Positions 4,601 through 46,676 of a stretch of DNA of 48,748 bases are shown piece after piece (within the stretch, counting starts at the first letter, position 1; each line of letters opens with the position of its first letter). The stretch spans positions 1 through 48,748 of IMG/VR virus record IMGVR_UViG_3300020472_000044; one strand, 5' to 3'. A model generated the notes under the pieces. The model was not told the origin of the DNA and did no database searches. It saw only the letters and a program-made list of their open reading frames with translations. Origin of the DNA: a virus. A program made the translations under genes and the position numbers.

Positions 4601-7600
4601 TGATACTAGATTTGCTTCAGAAAACAATGCTTATATTTATTTAGTAAATAGAAATATACCAATATCAGGATTTATCCATAGATTACAAAACAAATTTACT
4701 AATTTATATGGGCCTAAAAACACCTTTAAATATCACGATTTACAAGAATCAGATGGTAGTGATATTTTTAGTAAAAATAAAGGAAATATGTTAACCAGCA
4801 GCAATGCTTCATATCATGAGTCAATATACAATAAATTAAGAAGTCAAAATTTATTAGGAGCAGCACCCGCTTATGGAATTAAGGGGGATGGTTCTAATGT
4901 ATCAAGCGTAGTATTATCAGAAACAATGACACCTATTGAAGGTAGCAATATTATAGATAAAGAATATGATGATACCTATAACACATTAACTGGGGCATAT
5001 AAATATAAAGGTTCAGATAATGTTAGGTTTGTTCCTCCAAGAGAATTCCCAGATATTAGTTTAAGTCAAATTAATAATTATTCTTTAGAAATAGATAATT
5101 GGGGATTACAATCAACAATACATGATAATGGTGCAAGGTATTTGATAAATGTAGACCCTAAAGTAAAAAACTATGAAATCTTAAGTTTAGGAGATGTTTA
5201 CCCAGAATCTATGTTGAGACATAATCACATAGGATATAGCACAAAAGATTTTACTAATTATGGTATGTTATTAGAAGGCGAAAAAGAAAAGGGTAATAGT
5301 GTTAATCATGCAAACTATACAGGTACTTTAAATGAAGTATCAGTAAAGGATAGTGTATATCAAACTGCTCAAATTAATTCATCAACAATTACATCAAATC
5401 AAATAAAAAGATTTGGAGTCATGAGGTTAGTAGAGGCTACGTTTGATTGGCATTTTAATCCAGTAGATGCTGAAAGCATGCCCAAAACCTCTGAAATACC
5501 AAACATACCAAATTTCAAATATATTAGATGGACACCCTTTACTGATATTGATAGAGATATGAGTGTAGATAAAGAAGGTGGAGGTGGAGATTTATTATTA
5601 AGATTCTATACGAAAAATACTTCAAATGAAGTTGATACTACTGTGCAACCAAATACTGCATTTTATCGTGCCTCTAGTGGAGGACTATTAGCAGTTTACA
5701 AAGGTACAAGTGCTGTAACTTTAACTGGTGATACTGACGGAGATTGGGTTAATGGTGACTGGCTTATCTATGAAGATACGGATGGTGCAAGAGTAAGGGC
5801 TTATTCTATAGAAGCACAAAAGAATACACAAAATATTAGTGGTAATCAAGTTTTAACACATAACTTTCCCGGTATTATGCCATTTAATATATATGCTGAC
5901 GATAAAAATGGTATTGATACTTTAGATACTAACTCACTTAAATTTACTAATATGTATTTAGCAAGAGGAGAAATTGATAAGAATTATCTAGGATATGAAG
6001 ATTCATTAACAGATAACTCTACTACATTTTATACACATAACCTTTGGATTCCTATGATTTCTCAAGTAAGAAGCAATAATGGAGGCACGACTAATAGAGA
6101 AAATTTTGCAATTTCTGCTTTCCACGATGTAGCACAATGGGAAAAAGACGATTATTGGGAAGACAATAGTAACAGTCCTCCTAGTTATCATCATTCTTCT
6201 AGATTAATTAGTGCATTAGCCCATGAAACATTTGAAACTGGAAGCGGTCATGCTAAAGCCCAAGAATTTTTAATGGGTACTGGTCATCCTTATGATAACT
6301 GCACAGTAATATTTTCAGATATTAAGAACTCTTTTGCTAGTATGACAGATAAAATGATTAACACTAGTGCTTCAATAGGGTTAGATACACAGGCTAAATT
6401 TAATGCTTATAATAGTGGACAGTCTGGGCGTGACCAACATTCAAGAAATTTATTAATTAAAAGGCGAGGCACAGATGCTGCTATATTAGGTACTAGAACT
6501 GCTAATAGAATTTTAAGTGATAGTGAATCATATGATAATTATTCATCTGGTACTTATCATGCTTCTGCTAGTGGTAATGATGGAGGAAAACTTTTTAACA
6601 CTCAAGCCTTCTTTAAACCACACTTTGATTTATCTAATATAACTACATCATCTTTGGCTTCAATTGGTATTCAAAGAGATGCTGATTCAGACCAACTACA
6701 ATTTCACATGAATGATAATTCTACACATAATTGGATGGCGTTTATGCCTAACTTAAAAAATCATTACATAGTCTCTAATGAAACTACAACTGGCGCATTA
6801 CCTAGCACATCATCTACAACATTAAGTAGTGCAGTAACGAATGTTGCTGCTACAACAATTCCAGTCCTTTCAACTAATGGGTTCCCTTCATCAGGAACAA
6901 TAACAGTATGGGGTTCTTACACATATTCAGTTGGCGGTGGTTCAGCAACAGTTTATGCTTGGGAACATATATCCTATACTGGAAAAACATCTACATCTTT
7001 TACGGGTTGTTCTAGAAATACAACTGGTGTTACGGCTGGTAGTTCTGAATCTGCGGCAAGTTGGAGTCTTGCTACTGGTGCTACTGTTCTTTGTAAAAGT
7101 TTCGATAAAGAAGGAGTACCGAAATATATTGGAAAAATAACTAGTCACCTTGTTTCTGCTTCAGGTGGTAAAACATTACACACATTAAATTTAGATAAAC
7201 CTATGGATTTCACTAACAATGGATATACATATAGACTTATGAGAATATCAGACACAACATTTGATGACACACCAGAAAAAATATATTTTAATAAAATGTT
7301 TGATACAGGGTTACAATATAAAACAGAAACCGAGAATCTTCTTACAGGTTCTACTGGTAGAATTAACTCATATCAAGAACATATTTATGCAATGTATTTA
7401 GCAGTTAGTACAGATGTTATGAATAGCAATGGATTTATAGAAAGAAGAACTCTAGCAAAAGCAAATGATATAGTAACTGGTGGTGACTTCTGTGTAACAG
7501 ATGGAAAAAACACTAGGCGAGTAACAACAACAAAAGATTATACTGCTAATATAGAATTATCATTAGACTATTCAGGTAAACTAACAGGTTCAGGAATAGT

Positions 7601-9145: not shown

Positions 9146-12100
9146 TGGTAGATAACAACCCTAAATTTATTAGTACCTTAAAGGGTAGTCTAACGGCTAA
9201 TACTGATAACAATGATACTGAAAGGCTTCAAGACGGTACAGACCACATTCACTCCGCAATTATTAATAGTTTGAATATAGCCGCAACGGGTTCTTTTGTT
9301 GCCGCAGGTGGTAATATCACACAAGGCGCAGGTAGTAGTCATACTACATTTGACGCTGATTCTATTACTTACTTTAGAGATGGCAAGTTAATGCCAGCCC
9401 TAAACCCCGGAGCAATAGAACCGACATGGGTTGTGAATGCATCTAATACATGGTATGGTCTATTAGTGATTGCTTCTAATAATACGTTAGTTGCTAGAGG
9501 GGCCACCGCATTAGGCAATACAACTTCAAAATCTGCTTCACCACAAATAGGAGATATTCCACTCGCTTTAGTAGAAATATCAAAAAGTAGTGCGGCTAAA
9601 GCAATAGATAGAAAAATACAATTCCTTGGTATTGGTAAAACTAATAATGAGTTTTCAGCAGTTAATGGTGGAACAGAAACACTATTAATAAATAAAGATG
9701 GAACTATAACTAAGGGGTCAGGAACAATTACTTTCCCTGCAACAACAGGTAATGTTGTAACAACAGGAGATACAGGTACAGTTACCGCCGCAATGTTAGG
9801 CGCAAATTCAGTTGATTCTTCAGAATTAGTAGATGGTTCTATTGATACTGCACATATAGCAGATGACCAAGTTACCTATGCTAAGATGCAAAATGTTTCT
9901 GCTGATGAAAGAATACTAGGTAGAGTTTCTGGTGCTAATGGAATAGTAGAAGAACTAACAAAGGCACAAGTATTAACTATGCTAAATGTTGAAGATGGTG
10001 CTGATGTAACTGATGAAACAAACGTTAAAGCAATCTTAGCAGCATTAGATTCTAGTGATACACTATACATAGGAGATGCTGGTAATGATACTACTGTTGA
10101 CATTCGCGGTAATCTAACTGTTCACGGAACTCAAACAGTAGTTAATACTGTAACTATGAATGCCGCTAATGCTATTGTTTTTGAGGGGGCTACGGCAGAT
10201 GCTCACGAAACAACATTAACAATAGAAGACCCTGACCAAGATAATACAATCACATTACCTGATGCTTCAGGAACTGTTGTATTACACAATGTCGCTCAAA
10301 CATTAACTAATAAAACCATTGATGCAGATAACAACACTATTAGTGATTTAGTAAATGCTAACATAAAGTCAACTGCGGCTATCGCTACAAGTAAATTAAG
10401 TGGCGCAGTTACAAGTATTGCATCACATGGATTAGCGGCTTCTGCTACTACTGATACAACTAATGCTGATAATATTGGTAGTGGCACATTAGCGGCTGCT
10501 AGAGTAGGTGCTTTACCTACAAGTAAAATAACAAGCGGAACATTTGCTGATGCTAGAATATCTGCTTCTTCTGTCACTCAACACGCTATTAGTAAGACTA
10601 TTGGTGATTTAACAGAAATGACTGACTTAGCAATAGCAAGCGATAAATTAGCAGTTTATGATGATAGTGCTTCTACATGGGACAAAATGGACGTAGATGA
10701 CTTATTAAGTAAAATAACAGCAACACAATTAGTTAGTGGTGGTGGAGGAACAGGAAGTGTTTGGGCTACATTACCTGCTAGTGGTGCAGAAGTTAATGTT
10801 CAATCAGATTGGGATGCTGGAAGTGGTGACGCTCAAATATTAAATAAACCAACTATTCCTAGTGGTAATCAGATTATTGATTGGACTTCTGACCAAGGCT
10901 CAACAAACATTCATACTGGTAATTATGTTAATACAACTTATTCAGAAGCAACATCAAGTGCTGAAGGTTTAATGTCTACTGCTCACCATGATAAATTAGA
11001 TGGTATTGAAGCATCTGCTGATGTAACAGACGCAACAAATGTTACTGCCGCAGGTGCATTAATGGATTCAGAAGTAACTAATCTTGCGTTTGTAAAGGGA
11101 CTAGCATCTGGTATTTCTGATGGTAATGTTCTAGTCGCCAATGCTAATGTAGCAGATAATGACTTCTTAAGGATTGATGGAACATCTGTTGAAGGTAGAA
11201 CTGCCGCAGAAGTAAGAAGCGATTTAGGTATTGCTGATGATGAAATAATAGATTGGACAACCGACCAAGGTTCAACTAATATTCATTCTGGTAACTATAC
11301 TGATACTAACACATGGAGAACAGTTACAGCAGATAGTAATACTCTTAGCAATACTGAATCTTTAGACTTTGTTGCAGGGTCAAATGTTACTATTAGTGAA
11401 AGTGGCGGTGATATAACAATTGCTTCTACAGATACAACTTATGGTGCTACTACTGCTGGAGGTGTTGCTTTATCAGGAACTAATTTTAAATTAGATGTTG
11501 GTGGTATGAATGATATTAACGCTGCTCTTGCAAGTGATGACGAATTTGTAGTAAGGGATACTTCTGCTGGTAACACACCTGTAAAATCAGATATAAGCAG
11601 AATACAAACTTATATGCAGAACAATCTAACGTTCACGACAAACACGAATACTCAATTATCGACTGAAGAAGTCCAAGATATTGTAGGTGGTATGTTTACT
11701 GGAAATACAGAAACAAACATTACTGTAACATATCAAGATGATGATGGCACAATAGACCTTGTTGCTTCAAGTGGAGATATTGTTGATGATACAAGCCCAC
11801 AATTAGGTGGAGATTTAGATGTAAACGGTAATAAAATTATTACAGATTCATTAAACGAAAGTATTCAAATACAACCACACGGTTTAGGTGCAGTTGAAAT
11901 AATTAGCACAGATGCAACAGACGCTAGAGGCCCGACTTTAAAGTTAATAAGAGATTCTTCAAGCCCTGCTGCTGATGATAGATTAGGATATATAGAATTT
12001 AAAGGTGATGATGCTAACGGTGCTTCACAGAGATATGCTACAATTACAGCGACACTTATTGACCCTACTGCTAATAGCCTTGATGGAAAACTTGAATTTG

Positions 12101-15100
12101 CTACGATGATTAATAGTGGGCCTGAGCCTTTAATGTGGTTAGACTCAGCCGGAGTTAGTGTTGGTCAAGGGTTAGGATTAAGGTTAATTAATAATAGTGA
12201 TGATTATGTAAATATTAAACCTGCTTCTTCTATCAGTTCAGACTTTACTCTTACATTACCCGGTGATGATGGTTCTGCTAATCAGGTGTTAAAAACAGAT
12301 GGTAGCGGTGTTTTATCTTGGGTTAACCAAACTACTAATACTAACACACAATTATCACAAGCACAAGTTGAAGATTATGCAGGTGGTTTGTTTACTGGTA
12401 ATACTGAAACATTTATTACTGCTACATATCAAACTGGTGATAATACTCTTGACCTTGTTGTTCCAGTATTAGATGAAGATGATATGAGTACAGATTCTGC
12501 TACACACTTAGCAACACAACAATCTATTAAAGCATATGTTGATGCGCAAACAAGTGCTTCAACCGTAACAGTTACAGATAGCACAGCAAATACTAATTTC
12601 CCTGTTGTGTTCCATAATGAATCAAATGGTCTATTAGATGATACAGGTGCTTTAAGATATAATCCAAGCACAGGAACATTATTAGTTCCAAATCTAAATG
12701 TTGCTGGAACAACAACCCAAGTTAATACTGTAACAATGGAAGCAGCAAATGCAGTAGTGTTTGAAGGAGCAACTGCTGATGCTTATGAAACTACATTAAC
12801 TATTACAGACCCAACGGCTGATAGAACTATTACTTTACCTAATGCTACTGGGACTGTTTCATTACAAACTCTTTCAGCAGGTAATGGTTTAAACTTATCA
12901 GGAAGCACCCTTTCAATGTGGGATGCAGAAGCCGAAACGTTGTTAGGTCAAACAAGTTGGAATACCGCAGATAGATTCAATATTTATGATGCATCAGCAG
13001 ATGCTTGGAAAGTAAGCAATATCGCTCACTTAACAAACTATATGCAAGCCAATCTAACATTTACTACTAATACTGATACTACTTATTCAGCAGGAACAGG
13101 ACTTGATTTATCTTCAACTACCTTTAGTGTAGATATGTCAGAAGTAATTGCCAATGCAGGTAATAATAAAATATTAACGGCCAAATCTGCTTCTGCTACA
13201 GATGTAAATGCAGAAGGAAATCTAACCTTTGATGGTTCTGCATTACAAGTAACCGGAACAATGACAGTTGGTGTTGATGATACAGGACACGATGTAAAAT
13301 TCTTTGGTGCTACTTCTGGTTCCTATATGCTATGGGATGAATCAGCAGATGATTTAATTCTAGGTGGTGCGGCTAAATTAGGAATAGGCACTACAAGCCC
13401 TGATTATGCATTAGACGTAGCAGGTAATATTGGTGTAGATAATATTATTTATCATAATGGAGATGGTAATACTTACCTTAATTTCCAAGACGATGATTTC
13501 AGAATTGTTGTAGGAAATGACCTAGCATTTCATTATGATGAATCAGGTACTTCTGTCATGCACCTATCATATAACGGAGAAGCAGACATAAACATTGGTA
13601 ATGGTGACTTCTTATTCGGAGGCTCACAAGGTTCTTACGATGGTAAAATGGGAGTAGGCACTATCACTCCTAGAGCATTATTAGATGTAACTGCTACCAA
13701 CAACCCTACTATCTTACTCAATGCTAGAGATGCTGGCTATGCTGCTGGTGATAAGATTGGTAGTTTATTGTTCTATAACAACGAAGATTCATCTGGACAA
13801 ACTGGAAGTAGAGTAGGTGCAGGGTTAAGATTTGTTGCTACTGATGCTTACGGGCGTGGAAATTTAGAATTAACTTCAGGTACTACTAATGCAATGGGTT
13901 CTTATAACGATACTGAAGTTTATACTGATGACACCATTGCTAGATTAAAGATTAATTCTGATACAGGACATATTTATATTCCATCAGATTCACAGAAACT
14001 ATACTTTGGTGCTGATAATGATTTACAAATATATCACGATGGCACAAATGGTAATGTTGATAGCGGAACGGGTAAATTATATTTAGATGGTGAAACAGGT
14101 CAATATCATAACGTTGCAGGTTCAAATATATTTAGAGTAATGTCTGACCATATAGGGACATGGCGCGATTTAAGAATGTGGTCACAAACAGAAGTAAGAT
14201 TTTATGATTCAGACAGTTCTCATTATGTTGGTTTTGAATCACCCGGAACAGTTTCATCTAATTTAATTTGGACATTACCTGCTGCTGATGGTTCTAATGG
14301 ACAACAGTTGACAACAGATGGCTCTGGAACTTTATCTTGGGCTGCTGCGGGTTCTGGTAGTGGTGCAGTTTCAGCCGTTGCTAATGGTGCTGATAATAGA
14401 GTAGCAACCTTTAGTAGTGCTGATGCATTAAATGGTGAAGCAAACTTAACATTCGATGGAAGCGTATTAACTGCACCTGCAATAACAATGGGTAATCTGA
14501 AATTTAGAAGCACTAATGAATTTGAAACAGATAGTGGTGCAATACATATGCAGTATAATACAGGTAATGCTGTTAATATTGGTTCAAGTGGAAATGAGTC
14601 AAACTTAGTGCATTGGGGAGAATATGATTTAACTGGTAGATTACACATTGATAAAAACGTAGATTCTGGTACAGATGCAACGTCTTCTGCTGCTATATTC
14701 ATTGATTATGATACAACAGGAACAAATGTTCCCGGCTCAGATAACGAGCATTATGCAATTTATATTGACCAAGATAACGCATCAACTGCGGGTGGTTCAG
14801 GTTCAGATGAAATAGAAATGGCAGGTGTTTACGTTGACCAAAGACAAAGCGGTGATGCTAATAAACAATATGCTTTACAAACTTATCAGGAGTTTGAACC
14901 TTCTACTGCACAAACAATCCATTCATATGGAGGCACATTTCACAGCATTCATTCTGTTATGGAACACGCTAGTGCTACTGTAACCAGTTTATGGGGCAAT
15001 AAAACTGATATTAGATTATCAAAAAATGGAGTCAACACTAATACTTATGGAGAATATAACTATATTGAAATTAACAATAACAGAGAAAGCAATGTAGGAA

Positions 15101-36869: not shown

Positions 36870-36932
36870 CTAATCAAAAATCCAAAAGAATACTGTTATG
36901 ATTACAAACCACATCAGCATCTCTTGAATCAT
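36870..36932 (-). CDS. Single-span membrane micro-protein, 20 aa
   Basis: MIQEMLMWFVIITVFFWIFD: essentially one transmembrane helix. The ATG overlaps the stop of the JAMM protease gene (ATGA). Its 3' end carries the ribosome binding site of the next mini-gene. Short enough that it could be chance. Confidence 0.4.
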   Translation of the reverse strand: MIQEMLMWFVIITVFFWIFD

Positions 36933-37408
36933 TCTTCTTCCTCACCATGTATTTTAACTTTTGTGTGAGTTTCATATGCTCTATCTACACTCCCATTTCT
37001 AGGTTCAAACGTTGCTCTTTCGTTATTACCTAATACGGTAGCCTTTTCCATGTTGTGTTGCCACATATTAATGGTCATCCAATCAGTTCCACTAAAATAC
37101 GCGTGACCAAAAGGATGGGTATGAATCCATTCTACAATAGGTAATTTCATCTTTCTTTCCCTATTATATAGTTCGGCATCCTGTCCTTCAAAAGAAACGA
37201 AGCCGGGATTACCAACACTCATAAACAATTGATTGTTAACATCAATAATCACCTGCACTTCTCTTGGCATATCAAATGCGGTTTGAGATTGAATCCAAAT
37301 TTCTTCATAGAATTCTTCAATAGAACATAATGGATTATCAAATACATCTTCTATATCACTTTTCCAATTATAATTGATTACTTCTAATCCTTCATGTAAT
37401 TCGCTCAT
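36929..37408 (-). CDS. JAMM/MPN metalloprotease (JAB domain), candidate deubiquitinase-like enzyme
   Basis: 159 aa, the size of a single JAB domain. The zinc motif is intact: EWIHTHPFGHAYFSGTDW has H96, H98, S106 and D109, exactly HxHx7SxxD; E50 is the likely upstream catalytic acid. Proteins of this family remove or mature ubiquitin-like proteins in archaea and eukaryotes, and some phage tail proteins carry the domain as a peptidase. Here it lies two genes from an E1-like enzyme, not in the tail module, and the virus also encodes a ubiquitin-like protein ending in GGY. It may trim the last Tyr and reverse conjugation (inference). The start is an ATGA overlap. Confidence 0.88.
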   Translation of the reverse strand: MSELHEGLEVINYNWKSDIEDVFDNPLCSIEEFYEEIWIQSQTAFDMPREVQVIIDVNNQLFMSVGNPGFVSFEGQDAELYNRERKMKLPIVEWIHTHPFGHAYFSGTDWMTINMWQHNMEKATVLGNNERATFEPRNGSVDRAYETHTKVKIHGEEEE

Positions 37409-38187
37409 AGATTTTTCAGCCTCTCTTCAATAAGCAATTGTTTCTCAATTAATTGTTCTAATTGTGCTTGTGCTTCTGCAATAGATTGTTCTCTATTTTT
37501 CTTGTTTGCAGTTTCTTTAGCCAATAGCAACTGTGCTTTCTTCTGTGCCTTAGCCTCTAACTTTCTCTGATTTCTGTCATGTAGCCAACTCACAAACCTA
37601 CTGAATAGACCACCTCTCGGCACATTCACAGTTAGGTCAGTAGATGGTTGCATTAAATCAGTCATATATTTATTGCCCTTCTTTCTTTTGATAGAAGAAT
37701 ACTTACCAACACAGGACGATATTGTTCTACCCAGATGATTTGCAATATCTTCTCGGTCATCATCATTTGCCGTCCAATTATTTAGTAGGTATTTTTCTTC
37801 CGAGATAGACCAAGACTTTCCAGAATTTCTCGTTTTTACTCTTGCCCATTTCTTCTTAGGCTTCTTAACCTTCTTTTCTACAACATCTTCATATTGCTTC
37901 ACTATTTCTTCAGGCTTCTTTGCTTTGCCATCGTGCTGATTTCCACTATAAACCATATGTCTTGATTTTATCGTTCCATCTTTTGCTAGTTTACCTAACT
38001 TTATCTTTACGGCCTTAGCACTTCTAGCCGAATAATCTTCACCATACAAATTAATGAAGTAGTTATTGAAGAATATATGGATAGCCGCAGATGGGAATGG
38101 TTTCCCGTCTGCCATCTTAACTTCCGTCAATTCCTTCAAATACTCTACTTCTTCATTTGTCCATTTTCCTTTACTTCCTCTTTTCAT
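37405..38187 (-). CDS. Double Myb/SANT-like protein with coiled-coil tail
   Basis: 260 aa. An N-terminal module GKWTNEEVEYLKELTEVKMA and a second at about residue 124 (SWSISEEKYLLNNWTANDDD, then IANHLGRTISSCVGKYSSIK) each have the W..EE...L / W / R...S.. pattern of Myb/SANT helix-turn-helix domains. A basic linker (VEKKVKKPKKKWARVK) lies between. The last 60 residues are a Glu/Gln/Lys-rich coiled coil. It sits between the E1-like and JAMM genes with ATGA overlaps on both sides. Probably DNA-binding; it could be the target or adaptor of the modification system. Confidence 0.6.
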   Translation of the reverse strand: MKRGSKGKWTNEEVEYLKELTEVKMADGKPFPSAAIHIFFNNYFINLYGEDYSARSAKAVKIKLGKLAKDGTIKSRHMVYSGNQHDGKAKKPEEIVKQYEDVVEKKVKKPKKKWARVKTRNSGKSWSISEEKYLLNNWTANDDDREDIANHLGRTISSCVGKYSSIKRKKGNKYMTDLMQPSTDLTVNVPRGGLFSRFVSWLHDRNQRKLEAKAQKKAQLLLAKETANKKNREQSIAEAQAQLEQLIEKQLLIEERLKNL

Positions 38188-38759
38188 ATATTTATCACCA
38201 TTTTATCTTTTACTTGTTCGTCATTGAACCATCGTTGAACCCATTGTGCGCCTATACCGGCTATTGCCACATGAGTCCAATGAATCTGTGTTGTGTCTTT
38301 ACCATCATTGAAGGATTCCCCTTGACAGGAGAATGAACCTTCCGGCCCTGCTAAAAACGTATCAGAATACTTTGGGTCAGCCATATAACTAATTAACGCA
38401 CCATTTCTGCCTTGCGCCCTCAAGTCTAACCACTTCCCCTTACACTCCGATTGAAAGCCTAACCTATAAACCAGTCGTCTTACATCTAAATTATCTGCAC
38501 AACAAATAACCAAATCATATCCTTTGATTTGTTTCGCCGTAAGAATCTCATACCTACTTTTGGTAGGAGAACCCCAGTTTAAGCAATCTACCTTATAATT
38601 ACCAACGTCTTCTGCATAGAAGTTTTGATAATAGGTATTCTTTATTTCTACAGTATCGGGGTCGGCAATTGTTATTGTATAATTATTAGTCTTAGCCAAT
38701 ATTTCAAACAAAAAACTACCGATACCTCCGACACCTATTATTAATATTTTTCTAACCAT
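38184..38759 (-). CDS. E1/ThiF/MoeB-like adenylating enzyme
   Basis: 191 aa, a minimal E1 adenylation domain. It shows the nucleotide loop GVGGIG (residues 9-14), IADPDTVE (D33, D35), NTYYQ (N41, Q45), DVGNYK (K56) and CADNLDVRR (D89, R94), all in family order. A candidate catalytic cysteine is C145 (GSFSCQGESF). No zinc CxxC pairs or rhodanese domain are visible, so it is shorter than MoeB or UbaA. Family role: adenylates the C-terminal Gly of a ubiquitin-like or sulfur-carrier protein. It overlaps TFB by 8 bases and the Myb-like gene by ATGA. Confidence 0.88.
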   Translation of the reverse strand: MVRKILIIGVGGIGSFLFEILAKTNNYTITIADPDTVEIKNTYYQNFYAEDVGNYKVDCLNWGSPTKSRYEILTAKQIKGYDLVICCADNLDVRRLVYRLGFQSECKGKWLDLRAQGRNGALISYMADPKYSDTFLAGPEGSFSCQGESFNDGKDTTQIHWTHVAIAGIGAQWVQRWFNDEQVKDKMVINI

Positions 38760-39702
38760 ATCTTACACCTGATACATATTCGTCTATTGTCATTTTTGTT
38801 AATGTATTTTTATCTACATTAGTTATAGCAAACAGTTTGTTTTGCGTGTTTCTAACTGATACTTCTGAACAATTGAATTGTTTAGCAATCTCTCGTTGTG
38901 TTAATTCAGTTTTACCAGTGGTTTTTCTCAATAGACAAGTAAACCATAAACCACTAGCCATAAACGTATTAGTAAAAGTCATATCATGTGCTTCTACCGC
39001 TTGTTCTAAAAACTGCACAACTGTTTTGTAATCTGTTCTTAAACTATCACTAACTTTCAAGTCAGAACAGGTCTTATCTGCCCAAGGTTGAACCGGCATC
39101 TTATGTAGAAGCCAAGGTTTTCCTAATGATTTAGCAATTTTTCTAGCACATTTTGATACTCTAGCAGGATTAACTTCATTACTCTTAGATAATTCCTTCA
39201 AAGAAATTGGAATCCCATTTTCTCTTAAAATATACAATACTATTGCTACTGCCCTTACAGGGTAAGAATATCCAGTAAGTTGATGAGCCAAATATAATTG
39301 CTTATAGTATGTATTTATTCTCTCTTTTAGATTAGCATTAGGCAACCAAGGAGATGCCACAAAGATACATTCCATAACACCATTAGAGATGCTTTTTTCA
39401 CTTGTTCCTTTAGAAAACTTAGCAGTTCGGATTAACCGACCTGCATTTCTTGTATTAATGGTTCTCCCTTGACTATCTTTTGAACCTGCTTTAATAATAG
39501 AACCTAAAACTCCATTATCAGGCTCAACATTACCAAAATTATGACCTCTTCCTCCTATTCCTCTGGATGATTCCATAAATCCTTTTTCTGTTGTAGACTC
39601 ATACATTGAGGATACCATAACATATCCACAATCGTCACAAACTCTTTCTCCTAATCTATCATTAATTGAATTTTCTTCACTATTACAATTTTCACATTTC
39701 AC
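38752..39702 (-). CDS. tfb: Archaeal transcription initiation factor TFB
   Basis: 316 aa, full TFB length. I use the GTG at 39702 (GTGA overlap with the upstream stop, GGAG before it). The N-terminal zinc ribbon is KCENCNSEENSINDRLGERV followed by CDDCG; a B-reader region and then two cyclin folds follow (about 90-190 and 200-300), the second ending in a helix-turn-helix (TQREIAKQFNCSEVSVRNTQ). A viral TFB can steer host RNA polymerase to viral promoters. Divergent linker residues suggest it has its own promoter preference (inference). Confidence 0.92.
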   Translation of the reverse strand: MKCENCNSEENSINDRLGERVCDDCGYVMVSSMYESTTEKGFMESSRGIGGRGHNFGNVEPDNGVLGSIIKAGSKDSQGRTINTRNAGRLIRTAKFSKGTSEKSISNGVMECIFVASPWLPNANLKERINTYYKQLYLAHQLTGYSYPVRAVAIVLYILRENGIPISLKELSKSNEVNPARVSKCARKIAKSLGKPWLLHKMPVQPWADKTCSDLKVSDSLRTDYKTVVQFLEQAVEAHDMTFTNTFMASGLWFTCLLRKTTGKTELTQREIAKQFNCSEVSVRNTQNKLFAITNVDKNTLTKMTIDEYVSGVRYG

Positions 39703-41048
39703 ATTATCACACTCCAATCTACACTATCTTGACTCATATTTTCAAAGTCAAACCTAGATTCACCGCTACCTTCTTGAATTTCTTTCGGTATATATTTAGC
39801 AATAGTATTAACTAACTTAAATGTCGTTTTATCGTTTAGTAAGGCTAATGCTCTAGTCACATATTGGTCACCTAAACTTGAATTGTCGTGTACGTTATCA
39901 ATACAAATTGGCCCACGTAATGCACCATTACCAAAAGTAGGTAATGGTTTAAGACCTTCTTTATCTTCTCGGAAGAATTCTCTATCAATATATACATAAG
40001 TTTTCACTTTTTGAATATTACTCTTATATGCTGAATCTACAATAAGCCAATCACATGCTTTACCTCTTACTAACATAACTTCATACTCTCTCTTTTCTTT
40101 AGAATCCATGATTGGAATAATCTTAATTTTATCTGGGTATCTGTCTACCATGCTTAACATTAATTGTTGCGCTCTGTCTTCAACAATCTTTTGTGTTCTA
40201 TTTTGAATCAGAAACTCAACCATCAGTTTTTGTTGACTACTATTTGGTTTTTCATCCATCAATTCTTCCCACAATTTCTTAGGGGAAAGAGCCTTAAATC
40301 TTTCAGTTCTGTTATGACCGTGATAATAATAGTTAATGAATATATCTAAATCTTTTACAGTAATTGGAGCCCAAATACCATCAGATATTTCTAATGCACA
40401 CTCATCGTTATCAATTAGTTTGGTGTTAAGCCTAACTTCCATCTTTATCATCGAATCATTTACTCTAGTGAAGAACCAAAACGGCGTTCTATTCTCTAGA
40501 GCATATGTTACATTTTCGGGAAGATTAATCATTTTAAAGTGATATTTTAATAAAGTAGACCCATCATCCTCAAAGCAAGAACGATATAATGTTCTGCTTA
40601 TGATAGTAAGCAACTGTTTTTTCTTAGTCCTAATTCCACCCAATGTATAGTATGGGTCGTTCTTTTCGACTACCCATCCTATTCCAGTATCGGGTAAATG
40701 AAATCCTATTTTAAATGTCTTAGGTGCTATTTTCCATCCTCTTCCTCCCCAACCAAATAAATGTTGAAGGATTCTATTCATATTAGTAATTAGAGGGTCA
40801 CCTTTACTACCATTTTGTCTAACCATTTCAACTTGAATATGATGTAATTTATCACCATCTTGTGTGTGTGACTTTCCTAATCCTATCTGACTTGCTCTAG
40901 CATATTTGTCAAAATATCTATATCCTCTAGTCGGTAATTCATAATCAGCATAAACATCAACTCTAGTTCTGTGTATGGTGTTTCTATTATCATCTGGTGA
41001 TGCTATATGTAATAGCAAACACGTTTTATTTCCAATACTATCCCACAT
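39699..41048 (-). CDS. Unrecognised 449-aa protein
   Basis: Start chosen at ATG 41048 (MWDSIGNKTCLLLHIASPDD; GGGGAAG upstream). It is an alpha/beta protein with HHIQVEMVRQNGSKGDPLIT, a Gly/Trp-rich LFGWGGRGWKIAPKTFKIGF, a central strand-rich region (FWFFTRVNDSMIKMEVRLNT), and a helical segment rich in Gln/Arg. No P-loop, nuclease or zinc motif is seen. It sits directly before TFB with a GTGA overlap. Possible roles include transcription or DNA processing, but nothing in the sequence decides this. Confidence 0.6.
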   Translation of the reverse strand: MWDSIGNKTCLLLHIASPDDNRNTIHRTRVDVYADYELPTRGYRYFDKYARASQIGLGKSHTQDGDKLHHIQVEMVRQNGSKGDPLITNMNRILQHLFGWGGRGWKIAPKTFKIGFHLPDTGIGWVVEKNDPYYTLGGIRTKKKQLLTIISRTLYRSCFEDDGSTLLKYHFKMINLPENVTYALENRTPFWFFTRVNDSMIKMEVRLNTKLIDNDECALEISDGIWAPITVKDLDIFINYYYHGHNRTERFKALSPKKLWEELMDEKPNSSQQKLMVEFLIQNRTQKIVEDRAQQLMLSMVDRYPDKIKIIPIMDSKEKREYEVMLVRGKACDWLIVDSAYKSNIQKVKTYVYIDREFFREDKEGLKPLPTFGNGALRGPICIDNVHDNSSLGDQYVTRALALLNDKTTFKLVNTIAKYIPKEIQEGSGESRFDFENMSQDSVDWSVIM

Positions 41049-41406
41049 TTTTTCTTCCCCTTTTCTTTCTTGGTTCTGGTTTCTTAACAAAATGACCATT
41101 GATATATACATGGTCGGTGTAATCTCTAGGCTTAAAGAAACCCTTTTTCGTTAGGTTCTCTAAATACCGAGAGTCACAACCCTCAGTAAATACATGGACA
41201 ATTACTGACTCCTTTGGGAGTTTAGCAAATTGTCTCCAAGAATAAACTTCACCGTTAATCTTAGGTCTTTCTAGATTACAATAGTTTTTCTTGCCAAAGC
41301 CATCATTTTTCTTTCGCCATCTCTTGTTTGTTTTTAGATAGTGGCGGTACGCTTTTATGATTTTTGACTTAGGTGTGCTTTTGAATATGCTAACAGCCTT
41401 ACTCAT
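41038..41406 (-). CDS. Basic hypothetical protein, 122 aa
   Basis: Strongly basic at both ends (KAYRHYLKTNKRWRKKNDGF and KKPEPRKKRGRKNVG), with a central strand-helix core ESVIVHVFTEGCDSRYLENL. Overlaps both neighbours by 8-11 bases. Probably binds nucleic acid. Family not recognised. Confidence 0.5.
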   Translation of the reverse strand: MSKAVSIFKSTPKSKIIKAYRHYLKTNKRWRKKNDGFGKKNYCNLERPKINGEVYSWRQFAKLPKESVIVHVFTEGCDSRYLENLTKKGFFKPRDYTDHVYINGHFVKKPEPRKKRGRKNVG

Positions 41407-41827
41407 TGAAGACCACCTTCACAAATTCTACATCTTTATGAAACTTTGTTGACATTCTATTTCTTCTAGTAATACTCAACATTGTTAATTCCATTCGCTT
41501 TCTATACTTATTCCAAAACATTTTCCAGTAGATATGCCTATTACCATAGACACACGCTTGGACTTTATTCTTGGTTGCCAATTTCTGAATCTTCATACAA
41601 TCTTCCACTAAATCTTCATCAGACTTATTTGGGAAGTGTTCATCCCATCTTTCAATAAAGTGTGGGGTCATAATAACCCAAAACTTCTTTTTACCATCAG
41701 GTAAGTCACACTTATAATGCATAGACGAGAATGGATTGAATGTCTTACCACACTCTTCGCATTCCATTTTTCCAGCCATTGTCATTTTAAAATTGTTACA
41801 TCCACATTTACATTTATTAAACTTCAT
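41399..41827 (-). CDS. Zinc-ribbon protein with C-terminal alpha/beta domain, 142 aa
   Basis: An N-terminal zinc ribbon KCKCGCNNFKMTMAGKMECE through CGKTF (CxC and CxxC pairs) is followed by a basic-aromatic domain (HFIERWDEHFPNKSDEDLVE, VYGNRHIYWKMFWNKYRKRM). The second part has the strand order of small RelE-like or PD-type folds, but no active site can be named. Overlaps the upstream gene by 11 bases. Confidence 0.5.
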   Translation of the reverse strand: MKFNKCKCGCNNFKMTMAGKMECEECGKTFNPFSSMHYKCDLPDGKKKFWVIMTPHFIERWDEHFPNKSDEDLVEDCMKIQKLATKNKVQACVYGNRHIYWKMFWNKYRKRMELTMLSITRRNRMSTKFHKDVEFVKVVFNE

Positions 41828-42167
41828 CTTTATTTCTCTCCATATATGTTGCTAATTCTTTCATTTCTATTATCTTCTTATCGAAGTGTTTGTCATCCTC
41901 TACTAATCCAGATACTATATAGAGTCTCCGGCAAAAGTGAATAAACGACTTAACCCACGAAGGGTCGTCTTTTTGCTTAACTACTTCCTCATAAAAAGCA
42001 TTAAGCGCAGATACTGCCGTCTTAGCATCTCTATACGCAAATCTTGTGTCTACGTATGCTAAAGACGGCAATATCTTCTTTTCCTCTGTTATATTAATAG
42101 TTATGTCTTCTTTCAAAGTCGGCCATATTAATATAACGTCATTGTATGTGAGTTTCTTATATCTCAC
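41817..42167 (-). CDS. Hypothetical protein, 116 aa
   Basis: Begins at GTG 42167, four bases after GGTGAT and inside the end of the reductase gene. RYKKLTYNDVILIWPTLKED, then a helical region KTAVSALNAFYEEVVKQKDD with FIHFCRRLYIVSG. Helical bundle; no family recognised. Tight coupling to the reductase does not by itself imply a shared function. Confidence 0.5.
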   Translation of the reverse strand: MRYKKLTYNDVILIWPTLKEDITINITEEKKILPSLAYVDTRFAYRDAKTAVSALNAFYEEVVKQKDDPSWVKSFIHFCRRLYIVSGLVEDDKHFDKKIIEMKELATYMERNKDEV

Positions 42168-44061
42168 AGTTATCACCTGCACAAGCGGGATTGTTACCAA
42201 AATCGGTATTATCATCATCCTCAAACACTTGTGTCAAGTCTACTTGTTTTAAGGATTTTATCATTTTATCATATGTTTCCTTATCACAGGCTTCAAATGG
42301 GGCTTGGTCATATGCTTTATCATTATATGGGAAACAGGCTAATCCATTATAGAAATGCCTGTTAAGCCACATCCATTCTCCCACTTCATCCCATTGATTG
42401 TCTTTAACATAGACGGTAGCCGATACATTATGACTATTCTGCCCATTTGTATGGCCGGGATTAACCCATCTAATTGTTGCGTCCTTTACTCTTTCTAGGA
42501 AAGCAAACGCATCTTCTCTTTCCTTAGTTAGTGCATTTTTTGGAGACATTTGAGGTATCTCAATAATTGCACCATCTTTCTTGTTAAACATATCATCTAC
42601 TATCAATTCCGGGTGGTTAGCCGCTAGATAGTAGTATATAGGTTCAGTCTTATTTACTCTAACTCTCCTAATATAATAAGGGGCATGCCAAGCATGAATA
42701 CCTGACGATGAACCTAATACACAAGAAGCAGTTCCTGAAGGTTTAATACAAGTTAAACGAGCCGCAGGTTTTGTTCCTATAATACTTGCTACTCTAGAAT
42801 TTTCAGCCTTAGCCAAATAAACTGCACCTGTTATATCTAAACCTAGTTCCTTTACTTTATTACTTGCTATGCCTGTCATTGATATACCAAGTAGTGCATC
42901 CTTTTCTGTTGTTGATTGCCATACATCTCTAAGATAATGGAAATCAGTATAAGATGCTTGTAGTGAACCTAAGAAGGTTGCCGCTTTAACTCTAGCATTT
43001 AAATCTTCTTGGCTATCTATATCAGAAGCATTTATTTCTGTTAAATTACAAAACTGATAAGGTCTTAATGCAATTTCGCAACAGGGGTTAGTTCCCCAAT
43101 CCTTATCATTAGAGAAGTAAATACCGGGTTCGCCAGTTCCACCTACTCTAATCCTATCCCAAACTGTATTAAAGAATGGTTTGTTAATCTTATGCCTCAA
43201 TAATACAACTGAATTGTTTGCTCTCATCCTTTGAGGATTCTTAGACCAAAACTGTCCAGCCTTACAATCAATCATTTCTTGGTCATCAGCACTAAATAAT
43301 GAAATTAGTGCGGCCCTTCTAATACCACCAGATAATACTGCATCAGCAATGTGACACATTATATCATGACATTGAAGAGATGATAGTTTTGCACCATCAT
43401 TCATGTCTTGAAGCATTCCTTCTATAATAACCATAGCCTTTCTTAAAGGGGCAGGGCCGGGTGCTTTACCACCACTTGTTTTTAGTCTTGCTCCTTTTGG
43501 TCTAATATCATCATAAATAAATCTGGGAGTTTGTGTTAACTCACCAGTATAAGACCTAAATAATTCCTTAATTGCGTCAGCCCAACCTACGATAGAATCT
43601 TCAATTACTATCTTTCTAGTTCTTGTTGGATTAGGCTTACGAATTTCAGGTAATAGTCTAACGTGGTGTCTTTGAACAGAATAACCAACTCCTGTTCCAC
43701 CTAATAATAGAAACATGGCTTCGTTAAAACAAGCCACATCATCTATTGGCATATAAGCACAATTATAAATCCTGTTAGGGGATATTTCAATTGACTTACC
43801 TGCAAACTGCATGGAACGCATTGAAGGCAATACCTTTAACTTCTTAACAAAGTTTTCATATACATCTATGATTTGGTCTAAAAATGATTGATTACTAACA
43901 TTGTTATCATCATCAAATTCTCTAAACTTCTCAAGGTGCATATTCATGTTCCTATCGCATACTTCTTCCCATGTTTCTCTTCTTCCTAATTCAGGGATAT
44001 ATTTGGCATACTTCATATGCACAGTAATATCACTCAATATCTTATTACTTACTGTCATCAT
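42157..44061 (-). CDS. nrdJ: Class II (adenosylcobalamin-dependent) ribonucleotide reductase
   Basis: 634 aa. Key sites: redox cysteine in RIYNCAYMP (about residue 101), GGIRRAALISLF, the catalytic Asn-Cys-Glu in TNPCCEIALRPYQFCNLTEI, the second-half motif KPSGTASCVLGSSSGIHAWH, and a C-terminal redox pair CAGDNC right before the end. Sequence layout is that of the single-chain B12-dependent type related to the Lactobacillus triphosphate reductase. It makes deoxynucleotides for viral replication without oxygen or a second subunit. The glutaredoxin-like protein at 46395-46676 could re-reduce its cysteines. GGTGAAG precedes the ATG pair. Confidence 0.93.
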   Translation of the reverse strand: MMTVSNKILSDITVHMKYAKYIPELGRRETWEEVCDRNMNMHLEKFREFDDDNNVSNQSFLDQIIDVYENFVKKLKVLPSMRSMQFAGKSIEISPNRIYNCAYMPIDDVACFNEAMFLLLGGTGVGYSVQRHHVRLLPEIRKPNPTRTRKIVIEDSIVGWADAIKELFRSYTGELTQTPRFIYDDIRPKGARLKTSGGKAPGPAPLRKAMVIIEGMLQDMNDGAKLSSLQCHDIMCHIADAVLSGGIRRAALISLFSADDQEMIDCKAGQFWSKNPQRMRANNSVVLLRHKINKPFFNTVWDRIRVGGTGEPGIYFSNDKDWGTNPCCEIALRPYQFCNLTEINASDIDSQEDLNARVKAATFLGSLQASYTDFHYLRDVWQSTTEKDALLGISMTGIASNKVKELGLDITGAVYLAKAENSRVASIIGTKPAARLTCIKPSGTASCVLGSSSGIHAWHAPYYIRRVRVNKTEPIYYYLAANHPELIVDDMFNKKDGAIIEIPQMSPKNALTKEREDAFAFLERVKDATIRWVNPGHTNGQNSHNVSATVYVKDNQWDEVGEWMWLNRHFYNGLACFPYNDKAYDQAPFEACDKETYDKMIKSLKQVDLTQVFEDDDNTDFGNNPACAGDNCEI

Positions 44062-44062
44062 C

Positions 44063-44611
44063 TTAACACTTCACCTGTTTTCTATATGGCATTTCTGCTA
44101 GATTAGTGAATGCTGCCACCCATTCATTATCGCTATTCTTTTTAATAGCCCATTGCTTTTCAATACGAATTTCCCAATCTGGGAATGTTTCGTAAGCATC
44201 TTCGCCGTATAATTCTAGCAATTCTTCAAAGTCGCTAAATGTGCGACCTCTATATACAACGTTCATTTCTCCGTCACAGATAATATAGGCTTTATCACTT
44301 ACACCTATTATATGTCCCAAAGGATAGAAATCTGCTCTAATTACTGCTAAATTTTTATAGCATCGAAAATCATCTACAAGTCTCCAACCAAAGACAGTCA
44401 TTAAATCTGAGAATACGGTTTTATTAGTAAAATTAATATTATCACATAAATCCATTAAATCACCTTTTGGGAGAAAGGGGGGTGGCCCTGCGCCCACCTT
44501 CCCAATCTCCGCTTTTATTTTCTTGGGTTCTCTTTTCCCATTGGGTTTAGGAAGATACCGGATATGGTTACTGTTTCTAGAAACCCCGGTAATACTCTTA
44601 CTATTACCCAA
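44063..44611 (-). CDS. Hypothetical protein of 182 aa, or 130 aa with a structured leader
   Basis: The longer frame begins at a TTG (44611) seven bases after the ubiquitin-like gene and adds a basic Pro-rich part (RYLPKPNGKREPKKIKAEIG, GAGPPPFLPKGD). A better ribosome signal, GGTGAT three bases before ATG 44455, would give 130 aa starting MDLCDNINFTNKTVFSDLMT. The shared core is alpha/beta (FGWRLVDDFRCYKNLAVIRA, GEMNVVYRGRTFSDFEELLE, WEIRIEKQWAIKKNS) with no known motif. The 44475-44500 part is unusually GC-rich and can pair GGTGG with CCACC, so it might be an RNA leader ahead of the shorter gene. Confidence 0.5.
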   Translation of the reverse strand: MGNSKSITGVSRNSNHIRYLPKPNGKREPKKIKAEIGKVGAGPPPFLPKGDLMDLCDNINFTNKTVFSDLMTVFGWRLVDDFRCYKNLAVIRADFYPLGHIIGVSDKAYIICDGEMNVVYRGRTFSDFEELLELYGEDAYETFPDWEIRIEKQWAIKKNSDNEWVAAFTNLAEMPYRKQVKC

Positions 44612-44617
44612 TCGAGT

Positions 44618-44818
44618 CTAATATCCACCGACTACTGCCGGGGTCAACTCCACCATTTCAACCGTGTCCCAATTTACAACCGTAATATCCTCACGGCTCA
44701 TTAGTTCACCATCAACAAACACCCAATGTGTAGGGTGGTCGTTAATTTGGTCTAAAACCTCTTCTTTCACTACTTCTAATTCAGTATGTCCTGTTTCATT
44801 TTGTATAATCAATTTCAT
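44618..44818 (-). CDS. Ubiquitin-like/MoaD-ThiS-type beta-grasp protein ending in GGY
   Basis: 66 aa from ATG 44818 with AGGAGTG eight bases upstream; an in-frame start at 44866 would add 16 residues and lacks such a signal. The order is beta hairpin MKLIIQNETGHTELEV, helix VKEEVLDQINDHP, strands HWVFVDGELMSRED and ITVVNWDTVEMVELTPAVVG, closing GGY. This is the beta-grasp layout and the ..V.L.PAV.GG end of sulfur carriers and ubiquitin-like proteins, with one extra residue after the Gly pair, as in precursors that need trimming. The virus also has an E1-like enzyme and a JAMM protease 6-8 kb away. Likely a protein modifier or sulfur carrier. Confidence 0.75.
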   Translation of the reverse strand: MKLIIQNETGHTELEVVKEEVLDQINDHPTHWVFVDGELMSREDITVVNWDTVEMVELTPAVVGGY

Positions 44819-46206: not shown

Positions 46207-46398
46207 TTAATTCCTCTTTCTTTTTTCTTCTAAGATTGCACAAAGACCGTGCATCTCTGTTTTGACATTATCACCTAATGTGTAAACCTTACCATTAGAC
46301 CTAACCATGTCCCAACCCGCTTCAATCCACACTCCACCTGCAAATTCACTCTTTCCACATACAGGGCAGAATCTTTCTTTCTTTACTTTCCGGGTCAT
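46207..46398 (-). CDS. Zinc-binding mini-protein, 63 aa
   Basis: KKERFCPVCGKSEFAGGV then GLCAILEEKRKRN: one CPVC pair plus a distant His-x2-Cys (MHGLC), a possible zinc site. The start is in an ATGA overlap with the redoxin gene. Function unknown. Confidence 0.6.
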   Translation of the reverse strand: MTRKVKKERFCPVCGKSEFAGGVWIEAGWDMVRSNGKVYTLGDNVKTEMHGLCAILEEKRKRN

Positions 46399-46676
46399 TC
46401 TTCTTCATCTCCCTTATTTAGGGAATGAATATGCCTTAAACACGCATCAAAGCCTACACCTACTAATTTATACTCTTCAAATCCCCTATTTCTAGTGACT
46501 TTTACGAGAGCAGGTACTTGCATAACTCCCATGAGTTCAAAAAACTCTGGGCTTGACTCATGAAATCTTGATTGATGATACTTAACCTCATAATTAAGGC
46601 TTTTACCTTCCATAAATTTAATCAATTGCTTACAAGACATACAACTGTCTGTTGTCATAACAATCCAATCATTCAT
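46395..46676 (-). CDS. Glutaredoxin/NrdH-like redoxin
   Basis: 93 aa. A beta strand leads into the active site TTDSCMSCKQLIKFM (CxxC), followed by YEVKYHQSRF, a helix, the cis-Pro segment MGVMQVPALVKV, and GFEEYKLVGVGFD: the thioredoxin-fold order of small redoxins. It ends in an acidic tail. Likely reduces the viral class II reductase encoded about 2.3 kb downstream. The start is near the stop of a 22-aa micro-gene. Confidence 0.75.
   Translation of the reverse strand: MNDWIVMTTDSCMSCKQLIKFMEGKSLNYEVKYHQSRFHESSPEFFELMGVMQVPALVKVTRNRGFEEYKLVGVGFDACLRHIHSLNKGDEEE

Follow-up and report, generated by a model that had tools for sequence, protein, structure and literature searches.

Reversible tagging of proteins by ubiquitin-like proteins (Ubls) has been shown in archaea for the SAMP/UbaA/HvJAMM1 system of Haloferax (PMC4443979), and the Ubl system of Caldiarchaeum includes an E2 and a small RING E3 (PMC5654768). 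Among mobile elements, the Borg elements encode many JAMM-like ‘deSAMPylases’ and one of them encodes a SAMP (PMC12660748), and the RaFAH paper lists a MoeB/ThiF gene among the auxiliary genes met most often in the genomes of archaeal viruses, with a mention of ubiquitination (PMC8276007). According to Makarova and Koonin, archaeal Jab genes are seldom linked with Ubl genes (PMC2948915), so that a viral linkage of the two stands out. Such a linkage is found in the stretch of DNA considered here (the window), which is the full 48,748-base record IMGVR_UViG_3300020472_000044 of IMG/VR (positions 1-48,748), a magrovirus-like contig with genes for a predicted Ubl, a minimal E1/ThiF-like adenylating enzyme, a JAMM metalloprotease and a fourth protein of 470 residues, here named the GDQ protein.

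Sequence comparison and fold modelling establish that the predicted Ubl, E1-like enzyme, JAMM protease and GDQ protein make up one conserved set. An earlier reading of the window (the original prediction) had proposed a Ubl system in one virus; this is supported, with protein conjugation as the likeliest function judging from the sequences, and the finding is real and broader than first claimed. The set is best described as an ancient system for Ubl activation and processing, common to host and virus, that probably serves conjugation.

Components of the viral gene set

The three open reading frames (ORFs) that the original prediction had assigned to the Ubl, the E1 and the JAMM protease are all found where it placed them, on the minus strand (table 1). 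Searches of Pfam, NCBIfam, PHROGs and the PDB returned no family match for the Ubl by sequence, and family searches gave no match to SAMP, MoaD or ThiS. The AlphaFold2 (AF2) model built from 78 relatives is a ubiquitin-like beta-grasp fold, with the elements in the order bb-a-bb-short helix-b as in ubiquitin and a predicted local confidence score (pLDDT) of 85. The best 50 matches of this model found by Foldseek in the PDB are all ubiquitin, NEDD8 or related Ubls, with modest template modelling (TM) scores of 0.39-0.49, probabilities mostly of 0.8-0.99 and no E-value below 0.001. Thus, the claim of a 66-residue beta-grasp protein ending in GGY, for which a check of the fold had been set beforehand, is borne out. 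Nine columns are invariant among the 78 aligned relatives, including G10-H11-T12, W32 and G64-G65, and the C-terminal Gly-Gly is unchanged in all 104 distinct relatives. In these sequences it is followed by no residue (11 cases), one (33), two (58) or three (2), which vary in type and include Cys in many viruses; such short and variable tails, mostly of one or two residues, point to the need for a processing protease.

The E1-like protein scores 61.7 bits against the Pfam ThiF model (PF00899), for which the curated cut-off is 28.1. The original claim that its nucleotide and Lys/Asp residues are intact holds across 81 relatives, in which G-x-G-G-I-G, D33, D35, N41, Q45, K56, D89, R94 and C145 are invariant, the catalytic Asp and Lys and the crossover-loop Cys (D35, K56, D89, C145) being all kept, but does not extend to the arginine of the N-x-x-R-Q motif. 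At this position Tyr or Thr is found in the viruses, His in the hosts and Gly in crAss, with arginine present in the PRTRC ThiF and in the ThiF-family proteins compared. The protein is not of the UbaA type (31.3 bits against a cut-off of 450 for model NF047750), remains below the cut-off of 144.75 for the PRTRC ThiF of NCBIfam (41.7 bits), and its domain matches the E1-E2 models of PADLOC as well as BubCD and Cap2 chains.

Residues E50, H96, H98, S106 and D109 of the JAMM protease are invariant in 74 relatives, and the perfect HxHx7SxxD motif of the original prediction is present. The score against Pfam Prok-JAB is 18.3 bits, under the cut-off of 25; despite this, profile and fold searches agree on the assignment as a putative JAMM protease. 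Indeed, a profile of the 74 relatives matches AMSH-like deubiquitinases (1.2e-5) and the Caldiarchaeum Rpn11-like enzyme (1.1e-3) in the PDB, and the best structure matches of the fold model (pLDDT 88.8) are Rpn11-like proteins and PfJAMM1.

The GDQ gene sits between the Ubl gene and those for transcription factor B (TFB) and E1, and, because an upstream ORF overlaps it, the true start of the protein may be internal. Its relatives share the pattern G-P-I-C-I-D-N ... G-D-Q ... R-A ... N-D, in which C403 is invariant in 71 relatives; most host homologues, described below, retain an I-C-I/H motif. The cysteine motif recalls the G-x-I-C-L-D motif of E2 enzymes.

Table 1. Features of the viral gene set and its neighbours in the window.
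Feature	Position	Strand	Basis or remark
JAMM/MPN+ metalloprotease, 159 residues	36929-37408	-	Invariant active-site residues; PDB profile and fold matches
JAMM motif HTHPFGHAYFSGTD, exact HxHx7SxxD	37082-37123	-	Read from the sequence
Gene between E1 and JAMM, weakly Myb-like (E 0.88)	37405-38187	-	Other genes there in relatives
Minimal E1/ThiF-like adenylating enzyme, 191 residues	38184-38759	-	Pfam ThiF 7e-17
Cys145 codon of E1 (SFSCQGE)	38325-38327	-	Aligns with cysteine of PRTRC ThiF and of most ThiF-family proteins compared
TFB, conserved neighbour	38752-39717	-	NCBIfam TFIIB 9e-17
GDQ protein, 470 residues, candidate fourth component with invariant cysteine	39699-41111	-	In 48/49 large records; host homologues adjoin Ubl/E1/JAMM
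Motif GPICIDN(x7)GDQ with invariant Cys403 of GDQ protein	39864-39914	-	Alignment of relatives
Ubl, 66-residue ubiquitin-like (beta-grasp) protein, C-terminus VGGY	44618-44818	-	AF2 model, Foldseek, Gly-Gly conservation
Gly-Gly-Tyr codons at Ubl C-terminus	44621-44629	-	Residues after GG differ among viruses

Conservation in related viruses

A scan of IMG/VR with E1 only gave four records, three with Ubl, E1 and JAMM genes and one (L004) that begins at E1. Alignment-based scans gave more candidates (90 for E1, 169 for the Ubl, 277 for JAMM), of which the 80 best per gene were kept, and 49 records of at least 79 kb were drawn from the candidate lists, each hence chosen for at least one of the genes. 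E1 is found in 48 of these records, the Ubl in 48 and the JAMM protease in 49; the three occur together in 47, and both gaps are contig ends, E1 lying 4 kb from the contig end on the Ubl side in G005, and the contig being cut inside the JAMM gene in G035, with the Ubl near the opposite end. G035 is also the sole large record without the GDQ gene. Since the 49 records had been pre-selected on these genes, 14 records were also picked by DNA polymerase B (PolB), a few of them being already among the earlier ones: nine have all three genes, and each of the other five contigs ends at the place expected for the missing genes. Order and strand (Ubl, 470-residue protein, E1, JAMM) are the same in all 176 loci that hold all four genes, it being possible for loci of one contig to overlap. 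A chance gathering of genes is therefore rejected by co-occurrence and constant order, and the viruses of Marine Group II seem, from these sequences, all to carry a Ubl, an activating enzyme, a protease and the fourth partner. The co-occurrence in related viruses, by which the original prediction could be judged, is thus upheld; E1 and JAMM, which it took for a unit, are indeed kept together, but the unit is larger and the 470-residue gene belongs to it.

A homologous system in Poseidoniales

When the E1 alignment was run once against bacterial and archaeal genomes, the first ranks went to two virus-like contigs that had been binned with a Maricaulis metagenome-assembled genome (MAG), followed by MAGs of Poseidoniales, the Marine Group II (MGII) archaea of the ocean (31-33% over most of the length), and then by relatives in Methanosarcinales. 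In those Poseidoniales genomes E1 is followed by a JAMM gene with the same motif, and UBA501, ANT-128 and similar MAGs have the order GDQ - Ubl - (GDQ2) - E1 - JAMM. By homology, the chromosomes of Poseidoniales encode a predicted four-gene system that corresponds to the viral set.

The viral Ubl profile matches Ubls in 68 of 146 genomes of the host order, 47 of which have two to five matches, mostly in tandem and about 200-220 bases apart in one frame. Like polyubiquitin, these tandem precursors have two to four units per ORF, and every unit has GG, or a close variant of it, at its end; in L422 four units lie in a single ORF of 284 residues (3826-4680). The Ubl pair of L427 lies within a single 2.06-Mb contig, so that the gene is chromosomal. 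Furthermore, Ubl-Ubl-E1 is read in one ORF in L420 (3681-4922), and a frame of the same length in another genome is consistent with this fusion, E1 and JAMM are fused in one ORF in two genomes (L423, 4643-5932; L424, 4196-5404), and in one genome a Ubl is joined to a GDQ2-like domain (L421, 2759-3841, minus strand). Because host homologues fuse the Ubl to E1 and E1 to JAMM, the three parts are likely to act together. The GDQ proteins provide the weaker link by numbers (hhalign of viral against host GDQ: E 1.9e-4, probability 47%), but a specific one: among 8,698 ORFs of host loci, the profile of the viral GDQ C-terminus matched, at E<10, only genes from loci of this system or virus-like contigs binned in MAGs, and it gave no match to reversed sequences. 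In L420 and L423 the host system has TFB-like genes beside it, which parallels the viral arrangement.

Viral and host Ubls are about 30% identical, and in an E1 tree of 40 sequences the viral group (support 85/98) is separate from the host group (96/90), with the deep forks open. Separate E1 groups and the low Ubl identity suggest an old shared ancestry rather than a recent capture from the host, which is not favoured.

Several other loci came to light in the same comparison. The two contigs binned with the Maricaulis MAG (L331, L332) have viral-type GDQ, E1 and JAMM genes and look like mis-binned magrovirus contigs. Methanosarcinales METP1 and Methanoperedens encode a related minimal E1 (L337 8004-8591; L344 7938-8525), which in L337 is near DNA-ligase-like, Ku-like and reverse-transcriptase-like genes that suggest a mobile element. 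A helical-looking protein of 78-81 residues follows JAMM in many Poseidoniales loci (L333 6463-6699 and equivalents). In L425, a Ubl with 18 residues past the GG (4573-4881, minus strand) adjoins GDQ, E1 and JAMM, on a contig that also has phosphatase-like and other genes and may be mobile.

Proposed function and alternatives

We favour, as rather probable, a virus-encoded Ubl modifier system, homologous to the chromosomal system of Poseidoniales, that is used for reversible protein tagging. The JAMM protease would cut after Gly-Gly, so that the Ubl C-terminus is freed of its short tail or, in a host precursor, of the unit that follows; E1 would adenylate the Gly-Gly, and Cys145 may hold the Ubl; the invariant Cys403 of GDQ might accept or direct it, as an E2-like part; and JAMM would later strip the Ubl from its targets. 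Because the set appears as a core trait of these lytic viruses, in the early/replication array and with TFB as a neighbour, its likeliest use would be to tag, reversibly, proteins of viral or host origin that act in transcription or replication while the infection proceeds; it may in addition compete with the host Ubl pathway or redirect it. There is a precedent in an archaeal TATA-binding protein that SAMP marks and that is then degraded (PMC4895103); this and the adjacency of TFB make transcription proteins a fair guess as targets. A bolder version, which is quite possible though short of being our preferred one, would see a complete, so far undescribed Ubl conjugation system common to MGII archaea and their viruses, with polyubiquitin-like precursors in the host, GDQ as a new class of cysteine conjugating proteins whose sequences show no relation to known E2s, and a copy of its own that the virus runs during infection.

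Several points weigh against protein tagging. The whole case is computed, from sequences and models. E2 (UBC/Prok-E2) homology of GDQ was not detectable with Pfam on 71 members, a PDB profile or hhalign (including that against PRTRC protein B); GDQ as an E2 by homology is rejected on these empty searches, which is why its E2-like role is put forward here as our inference alone. No E3 was found either. The replacement of the N-x-x-R-Q arginine, by Tyr in the virus of the window, is a real departure from canonical E1s, the TM scores of the Ubl and JAMM fold matches are below about 0.5, and adjacency of TFB in the host is limited to two or three loci.

The main rival is a sulfur carrier: after trimming by JAMM and adenylation by E1, the Ubl would be thiocarboxylated and would pass its sulfur on to a cofactor, an RNA or a small molecule. 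In the quinolobactin pathway the carrier QbsE has two further residues after its GG, which its JAB protease removes, much like the tails of one or two residues here, and the Cys found in many viral tails would also suit this role. Operons of E1, Ubl and JAB do serve sulfur transfer as well, in the synthesis of the siderophores PDTC and quinolobactin in Pseudomonas with ThiS/MoaD-like Ubls (PMC1779556), a further point against tagging. However, in and beside the block family scans recognised neither a sulfurtransferase, such as a rhodanese, nor a metabolic enzyme as a target, the hosts have tandem polyubiquitin-like precursors, and the set always includes a fourth protein in which one Cys is invariant, so that we hold sulfur transfer to be rather unlikely.

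The existence of a homologous system in the host gives weight to another part of the original prediction, namely viral interference with a host Ubl pathway, the ‘SAMP’ label that it attached to this pathway being a misfit (31 against 450 bits for the E1). In its strict form, in which the viral parts sabotage or mimic the host system, JAMM stripping host tags and Ubl and E1 competing as decoys, such counter-defence would be in line with the way the JAMM-like ‘deSAMPylases’ of Borg elements have been interpreted (PMC12660748) and with the action of bacterial Ubl systems against phages (PMC10097602; Hor et al. 2024 as cited in PMC12660748). A saboteur would, however, need JAMM alone, and here all four parts are kept with their active-site residues intact; the viral and host Ubls are only about 30% identical; and the Ubl was found in less than half of the sampled genomes of the host order, a figure for which search sensitivity or incomplete genomes may be partly responsible. 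Taken together, these make counter-defence as the main purpose improbable. A non-catalytic role in the virion, with the Ubl and JAMM as a pair in particle assembly, would have a precedent in lambdoid phages, where a tail protein with a Ubl domain is paired with a JAB peptidase (PMC1779556), and such a role has been proposed for the lambda tail proteins TAPI and TAPK. It is very improbable here, the block lying among genes for replication and transcription on the minus strand, some 20 kb away from the array on the plus strand (1-17 kb) that was read earlier as a tail module, and lambda-type clusters being without the E1 that is fully conserved in these viruses.

Source contig and neighbouring genes

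Magroviruses are plentiful in the surface ocean, and we know of no cultured one. The window, with a G+C content of 35%, has a plus-strand gene array at 1-17 kb and, opposite to it on the minus strand, an array of genes for replication, transcription and nucleotides, among which TFB and a B12-type ribonucleotide reductase have family matches, while PolB in two pieces, PCNA, RFC and an ATP ligase are named by resemblance. With most replication genes so named, this arrangement fits the way in which the International Committee on Taxonomy of Viruses describes magroviruses, which are assigned to Poseidoniales as hosts: two opposed arrays, one for replication and one for morphogenesis, a PolB split in two, RFC, PCNA, TFB and ligase (PMC12999244, PMC10768690). 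The array that holds the B12-dependent ribonucleotide reductase (42157-44061) also encodes a glutaredoxin/NrdH-like protein (E 0.0016; 46395-46676, minus strand).

The gene that the original prediction called Myb-like does lie between E1 and JAMM, but the likeness is weak and the gene differs between viruses; being replaced in relatives, it is probably not a core part. Downstream of JAMM, the relative L003 has a GroEL-like chaperonin gene (11903-13432), and the window has none at that place.

Comparison with known systems

The SAMP system is likewise an archaeal trio of Gly-Gly Ubl, E1 homologue and JAMM protease. It differs from the viral set in that the viral E1 reaches 31 bits against the 450-bit cut-off for UbaA, residues follow the viral GG, the viral Ubl has no SAMP, MoaD or ThiS match, and the viral genes are clustered, borne by a virus and accompanied by the GDQ protein. 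The Caldiarchaeum cascade also combines an archaeal Ubl with a dedicated JAMM protease, and the viral JAMM finds its best fold match in the Rpn11 homologue of that cascade, but the E2 and RING E3 of the cascade have no recognised counterpart in the virus. Compact sets of the Ubl-conjugation type are likewise found in the bacterial E1/E2/JAB operons (type 6 of Iyer 2006; CBASS Cap2/Cap3; Bil; Bub), from which the virus differs by an E1 that is a separate minimal domain without E2 fusion and by the lack of a recognisable E2.

The PRTRC system of plasmids (ThiF; protein A, a JAB; protein B, of E2 family D; protein C, Prok_Ub) is also an operon of a mobile element with Ubl, E1 and JAB. Its ThiF is related to the viral E1 (hhalign E 3.6e-20, with the Cys aligned), and its protein A gives E 5.5e-4 and a probability of 30% with the viral JAMM. 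No likeness of the viral Ubl to PRTRC_C (Prok_Ub) was found by Pfam, NCBIfam or hhalign, and none of the 15 window proteins scanned with NCBIfam matched the E2-D protein B, ParB, E or F. Membership of the PRTRC system is therefore rejected, the E1 being related and the Ubl and GDQ not detectably so. In phages, crAss001 has adjacent genes, gp76 and gp77, for a ThiF domain (31% identity) and a JAB protease with HxHx7SxxD (L323, 2256-4654); the crAss-like E1 differs by an additional N-terminal part of about 160 residues and by its separate branch in the E1 tree, and no Ubl partner was recognised beside the ThiF/JAB pair.

The original prediction knew of no described system of this form, and none was found in the literature searched, whose coverage leaves several key magrovirus papers outside. 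Within that coverage there is no account of the full viral set or of the Poseidoniales system, no mention of a Ubl or JAMM in work on magroviruses or archaeal viruses, and no paper joining magroviruses and ubiquitin; those joining Poseidoniales and ubiquitin are, by their titles and abstracts, off-topic only. The passages on MoeB/ThiF in the RaFAH paper (PMC8276007) are without a Ubl, a JAMM protease, a fourth gene or a host system.

A core gene set with testable biochemistry offers a way into the biology of the uncultured magroviruses, and protein tagging may be core to how these abundant viruses work. On the host side, the tandem Ubl precursors and the Ubl-E1 and E1-JAMM fusions would represent a new branch of archaeal ubiquitin-like systems that bears on the origin of ubiquitin conjugation, and GDQ, if proven to be a conjugating enzyme, would be one of a new kind. 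Sets of Ubl, E1 and JAMM are known from cells and plasmids; a virus that universally carries the whole set, together with a homologous system in its host, was not found in the literature searched.

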